DNA of 64,000 bases from Natrinema hispanicum (GTDB lineage Archaea; Halobacteriota; Halobacteria; Halobacteriales; Natrialbaceae). Of this stretch, positions 16,237 to 24,290 are shown one piece after another. The notes under the pieces were generated by a model. The model worked only from the letters and a program-made list of their open reading frames with translations. It made no database searches and was not told the DNA's origin. The stretch is from positions 124,001 to 188,000 of the forward strand of contig NZ_FOIC01000002.1 of assembly GCF_900111485.1 (NCBI RefSeq). Direction: 5' to 3'. Numbering within the stretch: position 1 is the first letter of the stretch; the number at the start of each line of letters is the position of its first letter. The translations under genes were made by a program, and so were the position numbers.

Positions 16237-17469
16237 TCAGGCCTCGAGATGGTCGATCCGGGCGTAGCGGCCGGCCCGCCAGCCGGCGACGAGCGCGACG
16301 ATGGTGCCGGCGACGAGCGCGAGCGCGAACCCACCGGCGTAGATTTCGGGTGGCGTCCGCAGGAGACGCTCGAACCCGAACACCGACGCTGAGAACCGGT
16401 TCAAGCCGATCACGGCCAGTGGCGTCGCCGCGACAGCAAGGACGCCACCGAGCAGGCCGATGACGAGCCCCTGTGTGCCGATCGTGCCAGCGAGTAGGCC
16501 ACGCGAGAGGCCGACTGCCCGCAACGCCGCGAGTTCCGCGCGTTGCTGGTGGGCCACGAGTGCGAACAGATTCGCGGTCAGGATGATGCCACCGAGGACG
16601 GCCAAGCCGACCAGCGTCGCGCCGCTTGCGAGGACGGCCGTGCGTTCCCCGAGCATCGACTGTACCTGGCTGTCGCTGGTCCGAACGTCGTACTCGGGAT
16701 ACTCCTCACCGATATCGGCCGCGACAGCGTCGTGATCGGCGTCGTCGGCCACATCGGCAGTGACGAACGTCGCCCGGTCGGTGCCCGACGTCCCGGCGAC
16801 GGCCTGCAGATCGCCAAGCGGGACCGTCAGCGTCGGCGAGCCCATATACTGCGAGTAGTAGTCGGAGATACCGATGACAGTGAACTCGTTTGCTGTCGCA
16901 GTCTGCCGGCTCGTCCCGATGTAGACCGTGTCGCCGACTCCGACACCGAGCGCGTCGGCGACCCGCGGATCGAGCACGAGTTCGCGACGCTGGGGATCGT
17001 CGGGCGGCGGACTGGTAGCAGCTCCTTCGGTGAGATCGAATCCATGCCCGGCCTGGAAGTCAAATCTGTCGTGAGTCTCGGGGACACCAACCGCAGGCCG
17101 GCGCTCGAGGTCGGACGGACTCGAGCCCACGTAGACGTCGTACATCGCGATCGGAGAGGCAGAGGAGATGTCATCTCGTGCGGTGAGGTCGGCCGCGACG
17201 CCGTGTGCGCCGACGATTGGGTTCTCCGTCCCGCTGGCTGCTGGATCGACGGGTGATCGCGAGATCCAGATGTCTCGATCGGCGTTGTCCAGCCCCTGTT
17301 CGCCTTTCTCGACGACGCCCACACCGAGGCTCGCAAGCACTGTCACCGAGAGTACCGCCAGCGTGACCGCGAGCACGGTCAGCGCGGTCCGTCCGGGCGA
17401 GCGTCGGAGCTGTGCGAGTGCCAATCCGACGACGGCTCGCAGCCGAACGACTGCACGCCTCACGCTCAT
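16237..17469 (-). CDS. ABC transporter permease (FtsX/MacB type)
   Basis: 410 residues. An N-terminal helix (ALTVLAVTLAVLSVTVLASL, about 28-50) is followed by a 210-residue extracytoplasmic MacB-like domain (IWISRSPV to YDVRTSDSQVQ). Three C-terminal helices lie in the FtsX domain (ASGATLVGLAVLGGIILTANL, LVIGLLGGVLAVAATP, ALALVAGTIVALVAGW). It overlaps the upstream permease gene by four bases (ATGA), so the two are translationally coupled. Together with the ATPase at 18712 it forms an exporter or mechanotransmission complex. The substrate is unknown. Confidence 0.9.
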   Translation of the reverse strand: MSVRRAVVRLRAVVGLALAQLRRSPGRTALTVLAVTLAVLSVTVLASLGVGVVEKGEQGLDNADRDIWISRSPVDPAASGTENPIVGAHGVAADLTARDDISSASPIAMYDVYVGSSPSDLERRPAVGVPETHDRFDFQAGHGFDLTEGAATSPPPDDPQRRELVLDPRVADALGVGVGDTVYIGTSRQTATANEFTVIGISDYYSQYMGSPTLTVPLGDLQAVAGTSGTDRATFVTADVADDADHDAVAADIGEEYPEYDVRTSDSQVQSMLGERTAVLASGATLVGLAVLGGIILTANLFALVAHQQRAELAALRAVGLSRGLLAGTIGTQGLVIGLLGGVLAVAATPLAVIGLNRFSASVFGFERLLRTPPEIYAGGFALALVAGTIVALVAGWRAGRYARIDHLEA

Positions 17470-18722
17470 CGGCCCACCTCCGCCAGCACGGACGTTCGTG
17501 CGGCCACCGCAAGCGGGTAGGGGACGGCAACGATGCCAGCCAGCACGGCGACGGCGATCCCGTAGGGGACGAACAGCGGATGGAACTGTGCGACCGCCCC
17601 GGGCGCGACGGTCGCGCTGGCGACCGCGTTGACGCCGGCGATCCCCGCCGCGCCGAGTCCGACGCCTACGACCGACCCGACGAGCGTCGTGATCCCGGTC
17701 GAAATCGCGATGACGGCGAGCCGGCCCCGCGCGGGGACGCCGACCGACTCGAGGACGGCGAGGGTACGCCGGTCCTCATCGACCGTCATCCCCATCGTCG
17801 TCGCGACGAACGACGCACAGATCGTCACGCCGACCACCAGCGCGATCACGCTGGTCGCAAACGCCAGCCCGTCATCGAACAGTGCGGTGGGATCGGCCGT
17901 GTCGGTGACCGCGACCGACGCGTCCGGGTACGCATCGGCAGCAGCCGACCGCGCGGCGTCGGGTTCGCCCCAGATCACCATCCGGTCGGCGAGTTCGCCG
18001 TCGGCAGCCCCGGACAACGACTGCAGTTCGCTGGCGTGGACGAGCGCGACCGGCGCACCGGCGTCGGTCTCGGAGACCGCAGTCACTGAAAAGTTGGTCG
18101 CGCGTCTCGGCGAGGTCGAAACGGTCAGGTCGTCACTAGCGGAGGCACCGAGCCGGTCAGCAGCGGTCCGAGAGAGCACGATCCCGCCAGTTCGTGGGCC
18201 GTCATACGAGCCGTTCGCATAGTGGGGATCACCGTCCTCGAGGGCATCTGTCGGCAGCCCCGCAACGGTCCGCGACTCGCCGTCCGGAACGACACCGACG
18301 AGTTGAACGGTCTGTGGGTCGCCGCCTGCCTCGAGGCGGCCCGCCTCGATTAGCACCGGCGAGGCGTGTGCGACGCCGTCATGTGCGCGGATCGTGCTGG
18401 CTCGCTCGTTGGTCGCTCCGAGCCGTGGTCCCTCGACCCCGTCGACGGACGACAACGTCTGCTGTGCTTCCGGCGTAATGTGGACAGTCGCGTCGTCCGT
18501 CGTCGTCACGCCGCCATCGGCCAGCGACAGCGCGATCCCCGTCACGACTAACAGGAACGCGATCGTCAGCGCGACGGCGGCGACAGTCGAAACGATCCGA
18601 CCCGCCGTCGTTCCCGTCGCTCGCTGCCACCACCGCGAGACCGTCAGAGAGAACAGTCCAGTCCACCGCCTGTGTCGCCGCGTCTCGAGGCCTTCGGGCA
18701 GGTCGTCGGTCTCATCGGACAT
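17466..18722 (-). CDS. ABC transporter permease (FtsX/MacB type), second subunit
   Basis: 418 residues with the same architecture as its downstream partner: a cytoplasmic start, helix 1 at about 50-75 (IVSTVAAVALTIAFLLVVTG), a long periplasm-like domain, and three C-terminal helices (ATSVIALVVGVTICASFVATT and two later). The start at 18722 (MSDETDDLPEGL) is preferred and overlaps the end of the ATPase gene by 11 bases. This gives a compact ATPase-permease-permease operon. The two permeases probably form a heterodimer. Confidence 0.88.
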   Translation of the reverse strand: MSDETDDLPEGLETRRHRRWTGLFSLTVSRWWQRATGTTAGRIVSTVAAVALTIAFLLVVTGIALSLADGGVTTTDDATVHITPEAQQTLSSVDGVEGPRLGATNERASTIRAHDGVAHASPVLIEAGRLEAGGDPQTVQLVGVVPDGESRTVAGLPTDALEDGDPHYANGSYDGPRTGGIVLSRTAADRLGASASDDLTVSTSPRRATNFSVTAVSETDAGAPVALVHASELQSLSGAADGELADRMVIWGEPDAARSAAADAYPDASVAVTDTADPTALFDDGLAFATSVIALVVGVTICASFVATTMGMTVDEDRRTLAVLESVGVPARGRLAVIAISTGITTLVGSVVGVGLGAAGIAGVNAVASATVAPGAVAQFHPLFVPYGIAVAVLAGIVAVPYPLAVAARTSVLAEVGR

Positions 18723-19476
18723 CGTCCACCTGACCGTCACGAAGCGTGATGACGCGATCGGCGACCGACAGCGTGGTCGCGTCGTGCGAGGCGACCACCA
18801 CCGCCCGATCGCGGCCGATATCAGTCAACAGTTCGAGGACGTCCGCCCCGGTCGCCGTGTCGAGCTCGCCCGTCGGCTCGTCGGCGACGATCACGTCCGG
18901 ATCCGTCGACAGCGCCCGTGCGATCGCGACGCGCTGGCGCTCACCGCCGCTGAGTTCGCCGGGCAAGTGCGTGCTACGATCGCCCAGTCCGACTGCCTCG
19001 AGCAGCGCCGTCGCACGCGCTCGCCGATCGGATCGTGAGATACCCGCCTGTACGAGCGGCAACGCGACGTTTGCGCGGGCCGACAGCGACGGCAGGAGAT
19101 GGAACCGCTGGAAGACGATCCCGATGTGACGCCGCCGCATCCGGGTTCGCTCCGCGTCGGACAGCGCCGTGAGATCGGTCCCGCACAGCAGTACGTTGCC
19201 GTCGGTCGGGACCAACAGCCCGGCGACCGCGTGTAGTATCGTCGATTTCCCACTCCCGCTTGGTCCCTCGAGCCCGAGGATGGACCCCATCGGCACGTCG
19301 AACGACACGTCCCGGAGTGCGGTCACCGTTCGCTCGTCACTCGAGCGAAGCCGACCGCCACCCGATCCGTACTGGTGGGTGACACCCTCGAGGCGAACGG
19401 CCGTCGTCGATTCGCGGCTGTCCGCTTCGATTGCCGACGACCGCGAATCCTGCGCTGATCGGTTGAACATCCTCAC
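18712..19476 (-). CDS. ABC transporter ATP-binding protein (LolD/MacB type)
   Basis: 254 residues. Walker A is GPSGSGKST, the Q-loop is IVFQRFHLLPSLS, the signature is LSGGERQRVAIARAL, Walker B is VIVADEPTGELD, and the switch His is in VVASHD. The first 28 residues are variable. It is the first gene of a three-gene operon with two FtsX-like permeases. The start is either 19476 or the ATG two codons later (19470). Confidence 0.93.
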   Translation of the reverse strand: MRMFNRSAQDSRSSAIEADSRESTTAVRLEGVTHQYGSGGGRLRSSDERTVTALRDVSFDVPMGSILGLEGPSGSGKSTILHAVAGLLVPTDGNVLLCGTDLTALSDAERTRMRRRHIGIVFQRFHLLPSLSARANVALPLVQAGISRSDRRARATALLEAVGLGDRSTHLPGELSGGERQRVAIARALSTDPDVIVADEPTGELDTATGADVLELLTDIGRDRAVVVASHDATTLSVADRVITLRDGQVDDVR

Positions 19477-19971
19477 GGGGTCTCACGACAGGCCAACGGC
19501 ACACCGACTCATTGTTTCGACCCCGTTTACCCACGCAAGACGGCTGTTACTCGCGGTTGCAGACAGACAACTGGACACAATAGACGGCGTTCAACGACTG
19601 TCAGGCCAGTCGTGTGGCTGTCGCGGGGCTCGAGCGACAGCCGAGCGGTAGGGACGGCTTGTCGGCTGACCGGTGACTGAAACGGGCACGTACAGGTTGG
19701 CACGATAGTAAGTCACGGAATTGTGATCGATTCGCGCACCCGAACCGTACTCGAGCCCTGCGTTCAGAACGGGGTGAGGACATCAACCGCGACTCCTAGT
19801 TACCGCAAGTGAACCGGCCAACGCCAGACGGCCTGAGACGAACTCCTGTCATACGGTCTGCTGTACCGATGTCCCGATGTGATCGCAGTGCGGGTTGCGG
19901 TCCCACCGGCACTGACTGATAGGAGTCCGTATCACAGCACCGACCGAAAAAACGAGAGTGACCGTGTGCGA
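19477..19971. other. Intergenic region containing repeat copy D
   Basis: About 495 bp upstream of the ABC operon. The only recognisable content is repeat copy D (19851-19932) and presumably the operon promoter near 19500. Open frames within it do not look coding. Confidence 0.5.
19851..19932 (-). repeat. Copy D of the intergenic hairpin repeat family
   Basis: An 82-bp copy, the best preserved at both ends. It begins ATACGGTCT (19851-19859) and ends AGTCCGTAT (19924-19932), which are inverted repeats of each other at eight of nine positions. The interior holds GCAGTGCGGGTTGCGGTCCCA and CCGGCACTGACTGAT in pieces shared with copies C and E. Confidence 0.85.
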
Positions 19972-20184
19972 TTACGTAGCGGTGAACCCGAGGTCGTTGA
20001 TTGTGTCGACGAGTTTCGGGAGGTCGAGACGATCGTCACCCTCAATTTCGACCGTTCCCTCGATGTGGTTTGCGCTGACGCGCGTGACGCCGTCGGCGTG
20101 GCGCAGTTCGTGCTGTATCGTGTCTTCACAGCCGTTGCACATCATGTCAGATACCTGTATCTGGTGGACTTTTGCTGTTGCCAT
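19972..20184 (-). CDS. Heavy-metal-associated (HMA) domain protein, CopZ-like
   Basis: 70 residues, a single ferredoxin-like HMA domain. The metal site is SDMMCNGCEDTIQ (Cys-x-x-Cys, about residues 16-19). It is followed by VTRVSANHIEGTVEIEG and ends with LVDTINDLGFTAT. This is a probable copper chaperone. No P-type ATPase lies nearby. A TATA-like TTTATATC on the minus strand at about 20210-20217 lies about 30 bp upstream of the start, fitting a leaderless transcript. The usual Gly before M-x-C is replaced by Asp-Met. Confidence 0.88.
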   Translation of the reverse strand: MATAKVHQIQVSDMMCNGCEDTIQHELRHADGVTRVSANHIEGTVEIEGDDRLDLPKLVDTINDLGFTAT

Positions 20185-20309
20185 GATCGCAGGAATACAC
20201 GCCAAGCACTGATATAAAGCTATCATATGACGAATATGCAACACGATCGGCCAACCTGCCGCCGACGAGCCGACGTATTCACACACCACTCTCGTTAAAG
20301 CGTCTTCCC

Positions 20310-20450
20310 TCGTGGACGGCAACGAGCTTGCGACCAGTGGGTTATATCGGTATAGCGGTGAGGGTGCCAAGCCCCCGCCCTCAAGGAGCTGCCAACGGCG
20401 GCAAGTAGGCCGGGGGAGTTCACACGGTGCTCGTTTGGTTGAGAACATCA
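20310..20450 (+). mobile_element. Probable 3' remnant of an IS1341/TnpB-type element
   Basis: One frame reads ALKELPTAASRPGEFTRCSFG followed by a stop, beginning at about 20378. This resembles the ALKEP-TAASR tail I recall from haloarchaeal TnpB proteins. The same DNA folds into two nested hairpins: an outer stem, GCCCCCGCC at 20370-20378 with GGCCGGGGG at 20408-20416 (one mismatch), and an inner stem, GCTGCC at 20388-20393 with GGCGGC at 20397-20402. Such 3' ends carry the guide-RNA scaffold in intact elements. No transposase or TnpB body is present. The identification rests on memory of the family. Confidence 0.42.
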
Positions 20451-20696
20451 CCAGATCGTGTGAGTCTCTCACAAACGCGGCGGGGGCGTCCGCCGGTCGA
20501 TAGCTTCCTGTCATACGGTCACGGCAGTACGGACAGCGACGATGCACGTTTCAGGTCTCCGCTATGGAAATCGCCAGCAGGCACAGCCCTCCAACAAGAC
20601 TCTTGGTCCACTCCAACTTCTTGGCCGTCTCGAGCGGGGTAAAATCGCAAGACGGCGGGCTATTCGGTGTCTGCTGCACTTCGACAAGAAATGAAG

Positions 20697-20770
20697 TCCG
20701 CCCTCCCCGATTTGAACGGGGGACAAGTCGATCTACAGTCGACTGCTCTACCAGTCTGAGCTAAGGGCGG
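20697..20770 (-). tRNA. tRNA-Tyr (anticodon GTA)
   Basis: A 74-nt cloverleaf on the minus strand. The acceptor stem CCGCCCT pairs with AGGGCGG, with discriminator A. The D-arm is GCTC-AGACTGGTA-GAGC. The anticodon arm is GTCGA-CTGTAGA-TCGAC, with anticodon GTA. The T-arm is CCCCG-TTCAAAT-CGGGG. The first base pair is C1-G72, the archaeal tRNA-Tyr identity element. There is no intron and CCA is not encoded. Confidence 0.95.
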
Positions 20771-20902
20771 GCACTTCGCACTCAAACGTAGCCGCCGTAG
20801 TGCACATAAGGGTTATTATTCGAGACGGTGAGAACATATCAGATTCCGTCAGTAGCACCATGATTGATATAGATGGCGTGATAAGACGAGAGCAATTCAC
20901 CG

Positions 20903-21523
20903 ATGAGCAAGATCACGTTCCGTGCCGACGACGACCTCGTCGCGCAACTCGAGGCGCTCGAGGCCTCGAAAAGCGAAGCCATGCGGGAGGCGCTTCGCGC
21001 ATATCTCGAGGACGAGGTGACTCGGAGCAACGATGCACGCTCCGATACGGAACGGACACACGCGGGTGCGATCGACGATCTCGTGCGCGATCGCGTCGAC
21101 GAGCGACTCGATGCGCGATTGCGAGAGGTGGGGCTCAGTCGCGCGAGCACACGAGCGCGCGGATCGACATCGCCACACGATGTCACCATCTCGATCTCGC
21201 TTGACGGTTCGACAGACGCGGCGGACGAACTGGACGCGGTTGACGTCACCCGGGCGCGTGAGACAGCGGATGACGAGCAGCGACCGGCACAGTCACACGA
21301 ACCGACAGCGTCCCAGCCACAGGACGACGACGTGCAGTGCAGCCAGTGTGGCAACCCTCTCGAGGGCGACCACGTCTACTGCCCCAACTGCGGCGAAAAG
21401 GCGTCGCGGCGATTGTTCTGTGAGTGTGGCGATGAGATTCGATCCGACTGGTCGTTCTGTCCCAGCTGCGGGCGTCGGACGCCCGCAGCGGACGTTCTCG
21501 AGTCGGACAGTACGCAATACTGA
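20903..21523 (+). CDS. cdrL: CdrL-like regulator: RHH domain plus double zinc ribbon
   Basis: 206 residues. Residues 1-45 form a ribbon-helix-helix domain (ITFRADDDLVAQLEALEAS, then KSEAMREALRAYLEDE). A polar linker of about 90 residues follows. The C-terminal 65 residues hold two zinc ribbons (CSQCGNPL...YCPNCG and CECGDEI...FCPSCG). This is the architecture of the long cell-division regulator CdrL, found upstream of cdrS-ftsZ2 in haloarchaea. It probably binds the promoter of cdrS-ftsZ2. A TATA-like GGTTATTATTCG at about 20811 precedes it. ATAAGAC at 20881-20887 resembles the downstream operator half-sites, so autoregulation is possible. Confidence 0.85.
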   Translation: MSKITFRADDDLVAQLEALEASKSEAMREALRAYLEDEVTRSNDARSDTERTHAGAIDDLVRDRVDERLDARLREVGLSRASTRARGSTSPHDVTISISLDGSTDAADELDAVDVTRARETADDEQRPAQSHEPTASQPQDDDVQCSQCGNPLEGDHVYCPNCGEKASRRLFCECGDEIRSDWSFCPSCGRRTPAADVLESDSTQY

Positions 21524-21528
21524 TCAGT

Positions 21529-21700
21529 GTAAGACGCTGAAAATCACGACCAGCGAAAACTTTATTGTCCAAGACAAACATCGACTTATTCGCGTAAGAC
21601 GGATTGTCTTACAGCCGTCGACAAGACGGAAAATCGCCCGACTACGGGCGGTTTGGACGTAAGACACGCCGCGTCTGACAGGGGCGCGCCACCGTCTTAC
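21529..21700 (+). promoter_or_regulatory. Promoter/operator region of cdrS-ftsZ2 with GTAAGAC repeats
   Basis: The heptamer GTAAGAC or its complement GTCTTAC occurs five times: 21529-21535, 21594-21600, 21606-21612, 21659-21665 and 21694-21700. The second and third form a palindrome with a 5-base spacer, and the fourth and fifth form a wider inverted pair. TTGTCCAAGACAA at 21565-21577 is a related palindrome. A TATA-like AAAACTTTATTG lies at 21556-21567. This would place the transcript start at or near the central palindrome and leave a leader of more than 100 nt. It is a plausible binding array for the ribbon-helix-helix proteins CdrL and/or CdrS. Confidence 0.65.
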
Positions 21701-21718
21701 CCAACGGGGAATACAACC

Positions 21719-21898
21719 ATGGAGCGTGTGACACTGCGAATCCCAAAGCAGCAGATCGAGGAAGTAGAGCAATTGGTCGACTCGGGCGAGTTCCCGAACC
21801 GGAGCGAAGCGATCCGGTCGGCCGTCCGTGAGATGATCAACGAACAGGCGGACGGCCCAACTGAGCAGTCCGGCAAACGCAACTGGGCGAAGGTGTAA
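21719..21898 (+). CDS. cdrS: CdrS, small ribbon-helix-helix cell-division regulator
   Basis: 59 residues, almost entirely one RHH domain: strand [17 protein letters not shown] and helices [21 protein letters not shown]. It directly precedes ftsZ2 with two bases between stop and start, so the two are one transcript. CdrS is described in haloarchaea as a transcriptional regulator linked to FtsZ2-based division. An in-frame upstream start at 21653 lies within the operator repeats and is rejected. Confidence 0.92.
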
Positions 21899-21900
21899 CG

Positions 21901-23088
21901 ATGCAGGATATCGTCCAAGACGCCTTAGAGAACGCAGAAGAAGAGGCCCGAGAGATGGACGCCTCGATGGACGGTGACGAGTTCGGGGACCCCCGAATCG
22001 TGATCGTTGGTTGTGGCGGTGCCGGTAATAACACCATCAACCGACTGTACAACATCGGCGTCGACGGTGCCGACACGGTCGCGATCAACACGGACAAACA
22101 GCACCTCAAGATGATCGAGGCCGACACGAAGATCCTCGTCGGCAAGTCGCTCACGAACGGGCTCGGCGCTGGCGGCGACCCATCGATGGGCGAGCGCGCG
22201 ACTGAGATGGCCCAGAGCACGGTCAAAGAGGTTCTCGGCGACGCGGACCTCGTGTTCGTGACCGCTGGGATGGGTGGTGGCACCGGCACGGGTGCTGCCC
22301 CCGTCGTCTCGAAGATCGCCAAAGAGCAGGGTGCGATCGTCGTCGGCATGGTCTCGACACCGTTTAACGTCGAGCGCGCCCGTACGGTCAAAGCCGAGGA
22401 GGGCTTAGAGAAACTGCGTGAGCAGGCCGACTCGATCATCGTCCTCGACAACAACCGGCTGCTCGATTACGTCCCGAATCTGCCGATCGGGAAGGCGTTC
22501 TCGGTGATGGACCAGATCATCGCCGAGACCGTCAAAGGCATCTCGGAGACCATCACCCAGCCCTCGCTGATCAACCTGGACTACGCCGACATGTCCACGA
22601 TCATGAATCAGGGCGGCGTCGCGGTGATGCTCGTCGGCGAGACCCAGGACAAGAACAAGACCGACGAAGTCGTCAAGGACGCGATGAACCACCCGCTGTT
22701 GGACGTCGACTACCGCGGCGCGTCCGGCGGACTCGTCCACATTACCGGCGGCCCCGACCTCACGCTCAAAGAGGCCGAGGGCATCGCCGACAACATCACC
22801 GAACGCCTCGAGGCCAGCGCGAACGTCATCTGGGGAGCCCGCATCCAGGACAACTACAAGGGCAAAGTTCGCGTCATGGCGATCATGACCGGCGTCCAGA
22901 GCGCACAGGTGCTCGGCCCGACGACCCAGAAACAGGCCGACAAGTCCCGTGCGAGCATCGAAGACGTGAGCGATACGGACTTCGACGCGAGCAATCACAT
23001 CGAAGACGGCGGCTCCCGACGCGGCGCACACAGCGACGGTGGCCGAAACGAGCTCGAGCGACAGAACGGCGTCGACGTCATCCGGTAA
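21901..23088 (+). CDS. ftsZ2: Cell division protein FtsZ2
   Basis: 395 residues. The tubulin/FtsZ GTPase fold shows [16 protein letters not shown] near the N-terminus and the [19 protein letters not shown] signature (residues about 120-138). The T7-region [15 protein letters not shown] carries the residues that complete the neighbouring subunit's GTPase site. Position after cdrS and the N-terminal [15 protein letters not shown] identify FtsZ2 rather than FtsZ1; FtsZ2 acts in midcell constriction. The C-terminal 60 residues are a variable polar tail. The gene ends 30-40 bp before a T-run at 23125-23129 that may terminate transcription. Confidence 0.96.
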
Positions 23089-23330
23089 CCTCCACGCGGT
23101 ACCTGACACACCACCGGTTCCGCTTTTTACGTGGTCAGCGATCAGGACTCAGACCACCGTCTCGGTATCACCGATTCCGACCGGCAGTCAAACCAATAGT
23201 GAACTCGTCTTCGCGACCGGTCAAGACGCCTGTTTACGAACGTATACAGGCGTGAGTCATCCATGCGGTCTACAGAAACGGGAGGACGAACGCAGTGTGT
23301 CAGACAGTTCGTCCGCCTCGAGCCGACGAA

Positions 23331-24290
23331 TCAGACGAGTGACTCGAGCAACGAGCACTTCCGACAGACTTCGCGGGTGGTCGTCGAGCCACACTCGACA
23401 CACTCCTGGAGGTCGGCCCCGTCGTCGCCGCTGAATTCATCAGAGAGGATGCCTGCCAGTTCTTCGTACCCCGAGAGAATCGAGTGACGCGTGCCGGGGT
23501 GGTTCTCCTCGAGCCCGTAGAGGAGTTGCTGGATCTCGCCGCGATAGGCCTCACTCGAGTGAGGACACTCCGTGATGTGGGCCGGCAAGTCGTTGACGTG
23601 GGCGTAGAGGGCGACTTCTTTTTCGGGAACGTCGCGCAGCGGCTTCGCACGCGGGACGAACTCGTCTTGTTCGTCCCGTTCGGAGAGCGGCCCGAGGCTG
23701 GCGTCGAAGTGTTTCGCCATCTGTTCGACGTCGCCCTCGAGGAAGTTCATCAGCGCCGACTGGGCCTCGTCATCGAGATTGTGGCCTGTCAGTAGAAGAT
23801 CCGCCTCGAGTTCGTCGGCGTATTTCGAGAGGAGATCGCGCCGAAAGACGCCACAGTAGGCACAGGCGGCCATGTTTTCGGGGTCGTCCTCGACGACGTC
23901 GTCCATCCGGACGCCGAACTCCTCCTCGTAGCTGACGACTTCGTGGCGGATGCCAAGGTCGTCGGTGAGGTCCACACAGGCCTCGAGGCTCTTATCGCGG
24001 TAGCCCTCGATTCCCTCGTGGATCGTCAACCCGACGAGTTCGATGCGAGGATCCGCGGCGAAGGTGTCGTGGAGAATCTTCGTGAGAACGACGCTGTCTT
24101 TGCCCCCGGAGAGGCCGATCACCCACGTCTGTGGGTTCTCGGGCGTCACGTCGTGTGGAACGAGATCGTCTCGTCGGACTCGTCGACGGACCCGTTTTTC
24201 GACCGACTCACGGAAGTGATCCGCACAGAGGTGTGCCCCCGAGTAGGCGGCGTGCATGATCGCCTCCTCCTCACACCGATTGCAGTCCAT
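23331..24290 (-). CDS. ncsA: tRNA 2-thiolation protein NcsA (TIGR00269 family)
   Basis: 319 residues. The N-terminal zinc ribbon starts CNRCEEEA. The PP-loop ATPase motif SGGKDSVVLTKIL (about residues 56-68) adenylates U34 of the tRNA. The central CAYCGVFRR and a later Cys (ITECPHSSEAYRG) are the catalytic cysteine positions. A C-terminal CVECGSTTTREVCRKC ribbon ends the protein. It works with SAMP proteins to thiolate wobble uridine of Lys, Glu and Gln tRNAs. The start at 24290 (MDCNRCEEEA) is standard; a TATA-like TTTTTATTG on the minus strand lies about 100 bp upstream. Confidence 0.93.
   Translation of the reverse strand: MDCNRCEEEAIMHAAYSGAHLCADHFRESVEKRVRRRVRRDDLVPHDVTPENPQTWVIGLSGGKDSVVLTKILHDTFAADPRIELVGLTIHEGIEGYRDKSLEACVDLTDDLGIRHEVVSYEEEFGVRMDDVVEDDPENMAACAYCGVFRRDLLSKYADELEADLLLTGHNLDDEAQSALMNFLEGDVEQMAKHFDASLGPLSERDEQDEFVPRAKPLRDVPEKEVALYAHVNDLPAHITECPHSSEAYRGEIQQLLYGLEENHPGTRHSILSGYEELAGILSDEFSGDDGADLQECVECGSTTTREVCRKCSLLESLV

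Follow-up and report, generated by a model that had tools for sequence, protein, structure and literature searches.

The feature at 20347-20423 (plus strand) of the window, by which we mean the whole 64,000-nucleotide stretch of Natrinema hispanicum DNA analysed here, is with high confidence a terminal-only palindrome-associated transposable element (PATE), that is, a non-autonomous miniature element in which the left and right ends of an IS1341-type (tnpB-only) transposon of the IS200/IS605 family have been joined. It has no tnp gene, its IS605-type ends are fused via repeats, and a palindrome lies close to its terminus. PATEs were defined by Dyall-Smith et al. (2011; PMC3119063), and the consulted sections of that paper describe some of them as derived from IS605-type elements through repeat-mediated deletion of the core, including a TnpB element whose terminal-only form, 52 bp long, occupies six strain-specific sites and may, on that account, be mobilisable.

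Boundaries and structure of the window element

The extent of the element was drawn from blastn searches against full elements and against short copies lacking tnpB (hereafter solos), from alignment of orthologues, and from the family consensus of the solos (TTA|GCGGTGGCGGTGAGGG...GTTCAC). The left boundary of the window copy is uncertain within about 20345-20355. In the orthologue alignment, the copy of a related species (genome G057) has AGCGGTATAGCGGTGAGGG at its left end. This indicates divergence, not absence, of the first GCGGTG block, and the boundary is therefore best placed near 20347. At about 75 nt (69-77 nt among the solos), the element is too short for transposase coding.

Two overlapping parts can be distinguished, both on the plus strand. 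The left-end-derived part, 20355-20389, matches by blastn the left ends of two tnpB elements of the same genome, on contigs C35 and C30, with 100% and 97% identity over 35 nt, respectively. The right-end-derived part, 20373-20423, was recognized by blastn and by translation of the tail and corresponds to the last 51 nt of the element, including the last tnpB codons and the 3' hairpin of the RNA; it matches the right ends of the same two elements (51 nt, 88%, E 1.4e-11), which is the comparison with TnpB 3' ends of the own genome proposed in the sequence-only reading. The TnpB-tail likeness pointed out in the sequence-only reading was likewise confirmed, the window translation ALKELPTAASR standing against ...ALKEPPKAASR over the same bases of the resident tnpB elements. 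That reading had taken the feature for the end of a TnpB-type element, which holds for the right end, but not for an end alone, the preceding bases being the left end of the same elements. Both parts share positions 20373-20389 (plus strand), a 17-bp direct repeat (CCCCGCCCTCAAGGAGC) that a listing of substrings common to the left end, the right end, and the solo places in both ends of the full element, and which is the probable crossover segment.

The two nested stems described earlier are present as a nested hairpin at 20373-20415 (plus strand), in which the outer stem (CCCCGCCCT/AGGCCGGGG) pairs 20373-20381 with 20407-20415 (8 of 9 pairs) and the inner stem (GCTGCC/GGCGGC) pairs 20388-20393 with 20397-20402 (6 of 6 pairs). 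Folding of 20330-20450 gives no support, its energy not surpassing that of shuffled sequences (z -0.15, with 83 of 200 shuffles as good), and the solos yield only a weak consensus fold; the hairpin is taken as real because its homologue is conserved, with compensatory changes, in 25 full elements. The right tip GTTCAC, at 20418-20423 (plus strand), is invariant in all 25 full right ends of our alignment (A2). Conservation in the solos falls off sharply 3' of this tip, and the first base of any guide would be 20424.

As stated in the sequence-only reading, neither tnpB nor a transposase gene remains in the neighbourhood, judging by eye from the open reading frames listed for 17000-24000. The neighbouring minus-strand genes, also named by eye, encode a heavy-metal-associated protein, a small zinc-ribbon protein, and tRNA-Tyr (20696-20770, minus strand), which starts 273 nt from the element; with Rfam at gathering thresholds, the window gives only tRNA and an eL15 leader. 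Positions 20425-20547 on the minus strand hold the remains of the small zinc-ribbon gene, upstream of the gene for the heavy-metal-associated protein, and this remnant seems to be frame-shifted in the window (compared by eye with G071 and C53:151714-151759). Matches of 20452-20500 on C53 and elsewhere were considered as a second repeat and rejected, since by eye they appear to be a coding segment of the small zinc-ribbon gene, outside the element.

Full tnpB elements and origin by core deletion

A blastn search with 20260-20560 against the own genome (G000; 3.96 Mb, 92 contigs) returned full-length copies of 20355-20423 on C80 (91%) and C74 (84%) and a weaker one on C55, together with split matches on C30 and C35, which have the two parts, 20355-20389 and 20373-20423, at opposite ends of a stretch of about 1424 bp. 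Blastn and translation identify these stretches (C30:2926-4349 and C35:3859-5282) as full IS1341-type tnpB elements, encoding intact TnpB with the tail ...GSPALKEPPKAASR(T/S)G. The solo is near-identical to them at its left end and closely matches them at its right end, whereas the tnpB gene and the full 145-nt RNA region that they carry are both absent from it.

In the common-substring listing, two direct repeats recur in both ends of the C30 element, one of 17 bp (CCCCGCCCTCAAGGAGC) and one of 15 bp (GCGAGTAGGACGGGG). One crossover or slippage event between the copies of either repeat would delete tnpB and fuse the left to the right end, the core removed in this way amounting to roughly 1.35 kb. 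Formation of the short form by recombination or slippage between near-identical direct repeats of both ends is well supported by these comparisons. Both junction types occur among the solos of relatives, one with a right-end interior (e.g., L157) and one keeping the left-end interior up to the second repeat (e.g., L163). In a second subfamily, found in Natrinema gelatinilyticum (G055), the interiors of two solos (L226 and L231) are those of the left ends of L122 and L123, which are full elements. Several solos resemble the full elements of the subfamily to which they belong, and two types of junction are seen, so that core deletion has happened repeatedly.

Two further observations concern the full elements. 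The N. gelatinilyticum genome contains about 20 near-full TnpB elements of this subfamily, with identities of 76-96% and single stops in some of them, which looks like a recent burst of a tnpB-only element. In the own genome, a tnpA fragment (Y1_Tnp positions 56-103; G000:C30:4349-4495, L038) starts where the C30 tnpB element ends on its right side; this element may have inserted into a tnpA gene.

Distribution, inheritance, and probable spread of the solos

Of the 125 genomes of the family, 50 have a match to a 75-nt query, spread over 17 of 29 genera; ends of full elements are counted among these matches. At 39 of 40 fetched places, picked from the long matches with some such matches left out (e.g., in G009 and G089), no TnpB match occurs within 600 bp. 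Most solos start after TTA with GCGGTGGCGGTGAGGG and end in GTTCAC, and their flanks are mostly unrelated. A covariance model built from the solos (R1) matches 19 of 29 genomes of the genus at E <=1e-5; among its best 119 listed hits (44.6 bits and above), 44 pair as ends of an element of 1.15-1.75 kb and 75 are unpaired, the latter being an upper bound for solos, since isolated ends of complete or damaged elements and one artefact are counted with them. The artefact is an apparent tandem array of solos in G058 (C91), one member of which lies beside a run of N and which has a repeated flank; it was treated as an assembly error. Haloarchaeal megaplasmids also carry the element (26 of 72,556 plasmid records, mostly ends or unannotated copies), and none of 50,697 phage records does. 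At one orthologous site (L164, G058 C64:20135-20213; L158, G000 C74:30850-30928), with flanks 93-95% identical, the solos of the two species carry the hairpin interior in opposite orientations, which is what strand switching in an extruded hairpin would produce.

The solo of the window site is also found, between the same genes, in G057 and G058. Compared with G057, identity is 84.9% in the element, 94.2% in the upstream flank, and 84.6% in the downstream flank; compared with G058, the respective values are 90.9%, 93.1%, and 81.5%, and tRNA-Tyr is 100% identical in the comparison with both genomes. The element thus lies between its two flanks in identity, which means no extra conservation, and the G057 copy has lost bases in the hairpin. 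Judging from these alignments, the window copy is inherited from a common ancestor with the two related species, and most likely it is now an inert, slowly decaying relic.

Solos with 0-3 mismatches per 75 nt occur at unrelated flanks in G000, G053, G055, G058, G071, and G074, those of G000 (C80) and G055 (C2) being identical; a near-identical solo of G057 shares its site with the G058 copy. The sequence data suggest that short forms have probably spread through the action of a Y1 transposase (TnpA) that was supplied in trans from another locus. TnpA would recognize the end hairpins in single-stranded DNA, and insertion would take place next to TTA without target duplication. One clean empty site fits this scheme: a solo of G058 (C52) and G057 (C2) is absent from G000 at C83:105061-105064, where, in an alignment resting on G058 versus G000, the flanks are 89% and 93% identical, one on each side. 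The left flank runs to ...CACACGCTTA in both genomes and the right flank resumes directly, with no target duplication at G000 C83 compared with the sister copy on G058 C52 (1 nt of ambiguity). The site shows, at the level of sequence, an insertion or a precise loss and does not tell which form was inserted; a full element that inserted and later lost its core would fit it too, as would a precise loss in G000. In the case of the window copy, the comparison yielded no clean empty allele, the sequence at that place in G071 and G074 being unrelated and the search with flanks in G071 giving no clean empty site.

Y1 transposases are encoded in 21 of 29 genomes of the genus, including G000, G057, and G058. 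The own genome has two intact tnpA genes, on C78 and C10; these contigs match the ends of the element weakly (E >=0.002), and no cognate TnpA with matching ends was identified among them. One genome, G073, has a solo and no TnpA hit at E 1e-5. No Y1 transposase was found inside an element bearing these ends, so that movement in trans is inferred rather than shown.

The earlier view of the feature as a simple deletion scar comes close, the core being deleted and the ends fused, although it seems that the short form itself has spread as well. A purely local history, in which an ancestral full tnpB insertion lost its core in place and the short form never moved, seems rather unlikely to us, although the direct repeats permit such a deletion, the repeated core deletion described above agrees with it, and for the window copy alone the two histories look the same. 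The occurrence of almost identical solos in six species, at many sites unrelated to one another, agrees better with spread of the short form, and so do G057 and G058, each of which has solos and, among the best 119 listed R1 hits, eight unpaired and no paired ones.

Guide RNA potential and relation to known systems

The remaining explanations assign a present function to the window copy. Domestication as a DNA or RNA hairpin, e.g., to terminate or process transcripts of the minus-strand genes nearby, could account for the persistence of the solo at the same place between the same genes in three species, but the absence at the orthologous place in G071 and G074, the identity no higher than that of the flanks, and the damaged G057 hairpin make it very unlikely.

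The sequence-only reading had proposed a stand-alone omega-RNA, in which a transcript of the solo, with the 3' flank as guide, would load into a TnpB encoded elsewhere. The solo does retain the 3' hairpin next to the guide, which the consulted part of one study describes as the sole consistently conserved feature of divergent TnpB scaffolds (PMC10278001). Moreover, the GTTCAC tip is intact in the window copy, the own genome encodes two cognate TnpBs (97-100% identity), and a 489-bp PATE of a halovirus, much longer than the solo, is transcribed according to an excerpt of its description (PMC10544981).

The full elements, however, indicate how much of the scaffold is gone. An alignment of their right ends spans 145 nt in the reference row, starting at TAGGAGTGG and closing with GTTCAC; 41 base pairs are predicted in it, and in 14 of them both partners are changed in one sequence or more. 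The alignment comprises 25 of 32 right ends, near duplicates, rows with large insertions, and one sequence without the 5' motif having been dropped; three relatives (L144, L145, and L146), in which the right tip was not found, were not used. This omega-RNA-like region (L115-L143, up to the right tip) is deeply conserved within this TnpB subfamily across several haloarchaeal genera. The solo keeps only the last 51 of the 145 nt, that is, the 3' nested hairpin and the tip, and the upstream scaffold is lost. With a model of the 145-nt region (R2), the window scores 42 bits over 71 nt, compared with 128-169 bits for four full elements; solos score 14-59 bits. The ISDra2 scaffold measures 116 nt, with a pseudoknot formed by upstream nucleotides, and processed omega-RNAs span 79 to 466 nt, as given in the portions of two papers that we consulted (PMC10097598, PMC10278001). 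A pseudoknot partner guessed by eye near -175 was dropped, as the conserved RNA region starts near -145, and no pseudoknot is claimed; the tip is invariant in A2 and so offers no covariation, and the solo in any case lacks the upstream region.

Further evidence also stands against a guide. G057 and G058 retain the window solo, yet their best TnpB proteins are only 51% and 50% identical to the cognate one, and neither the element's conservation relative to its flanks nor the damaged G057 hairpin gives a sign of constraint. The proposal that the sequence 3' of the element might match a genomic or plasmid target was not borne out: the first 14 bases of the would-be guide have a single match in the genome at <=1 mismatch, the locus itself, the 38 bases of 20423-20460 have no plasmid match, and a 16-base guide pattern has 9 viral matches, close to the 6 of its reverse, used as a control. 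Stems are kept up in solos (outer 8.1 of 9 pairs, inner 4.6 of 6) and in full elements (outer 8.6 of 9, inner 4.8 of 5), but this is no argument for a guide, because TnpA of this family also binds the subterminal hairpin, as stated in the consulted part of PMC10278001. The stand-alone guide RNA is thus not supported for the window feature, and we consider it extremely unlikely. Compared with the omega-RNAs of Halobacterium salinarum (sotRNAs; PMC12558985), the solo shares the right-end hairpin and the tip adjoining the flank, but it has no upstream hairpins, one of which pairs with the tip as a pseudoknot in the published structure. Among the papers searched, we identified none, by titles and abstracts, linking such solos to TnpB guide RNAs. 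That solo ends serve as crRNA-like half guides, short transcripts of 3' hairpin, tip, and flank guide completed by the 5' half of a resident omega-RNA, is barely credible, although, if true, cheap miniature elements would multiply the guides of one TnpB, as the repeat does for Cas12.

The closest counterparts of the terminal-only PATE described here are those of Haloquadratum walsbyi, which, in the sections of PMC3119063 consulted, include the 52-bp ISHwa23 form and are likewise fused ends of an IS605-type, TnpB-coding element. Near-terminal palindromes, lack of target duplication, occurrence at many sites, and absence of a transposase gene are common to both. The core was lost between direct repeats of 19 bp in H. 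walsbyi, as opposed to 17 and 15 bp here, and, going by the same sections, the present elements differ in belonging to another genus and element subfamily, in their length (about 75 nt versus 52), in having two alternative junctions, and in recurring almost unchanged in several species.

A suspected orphan guide RNA thereby becomes a catalogued kind of miniature element, which carries a warning that a right-end hairpin and similarity to a TnpB tail are, by themselves, no evidence for an orphan omega-RNA. With its length of about 75 nt, its sharp ends, its closely matching copies in different Natrinema species, and one clean empty site, this family allows a test of the question raised in 2011, whether terminal-only PATEs move as such.
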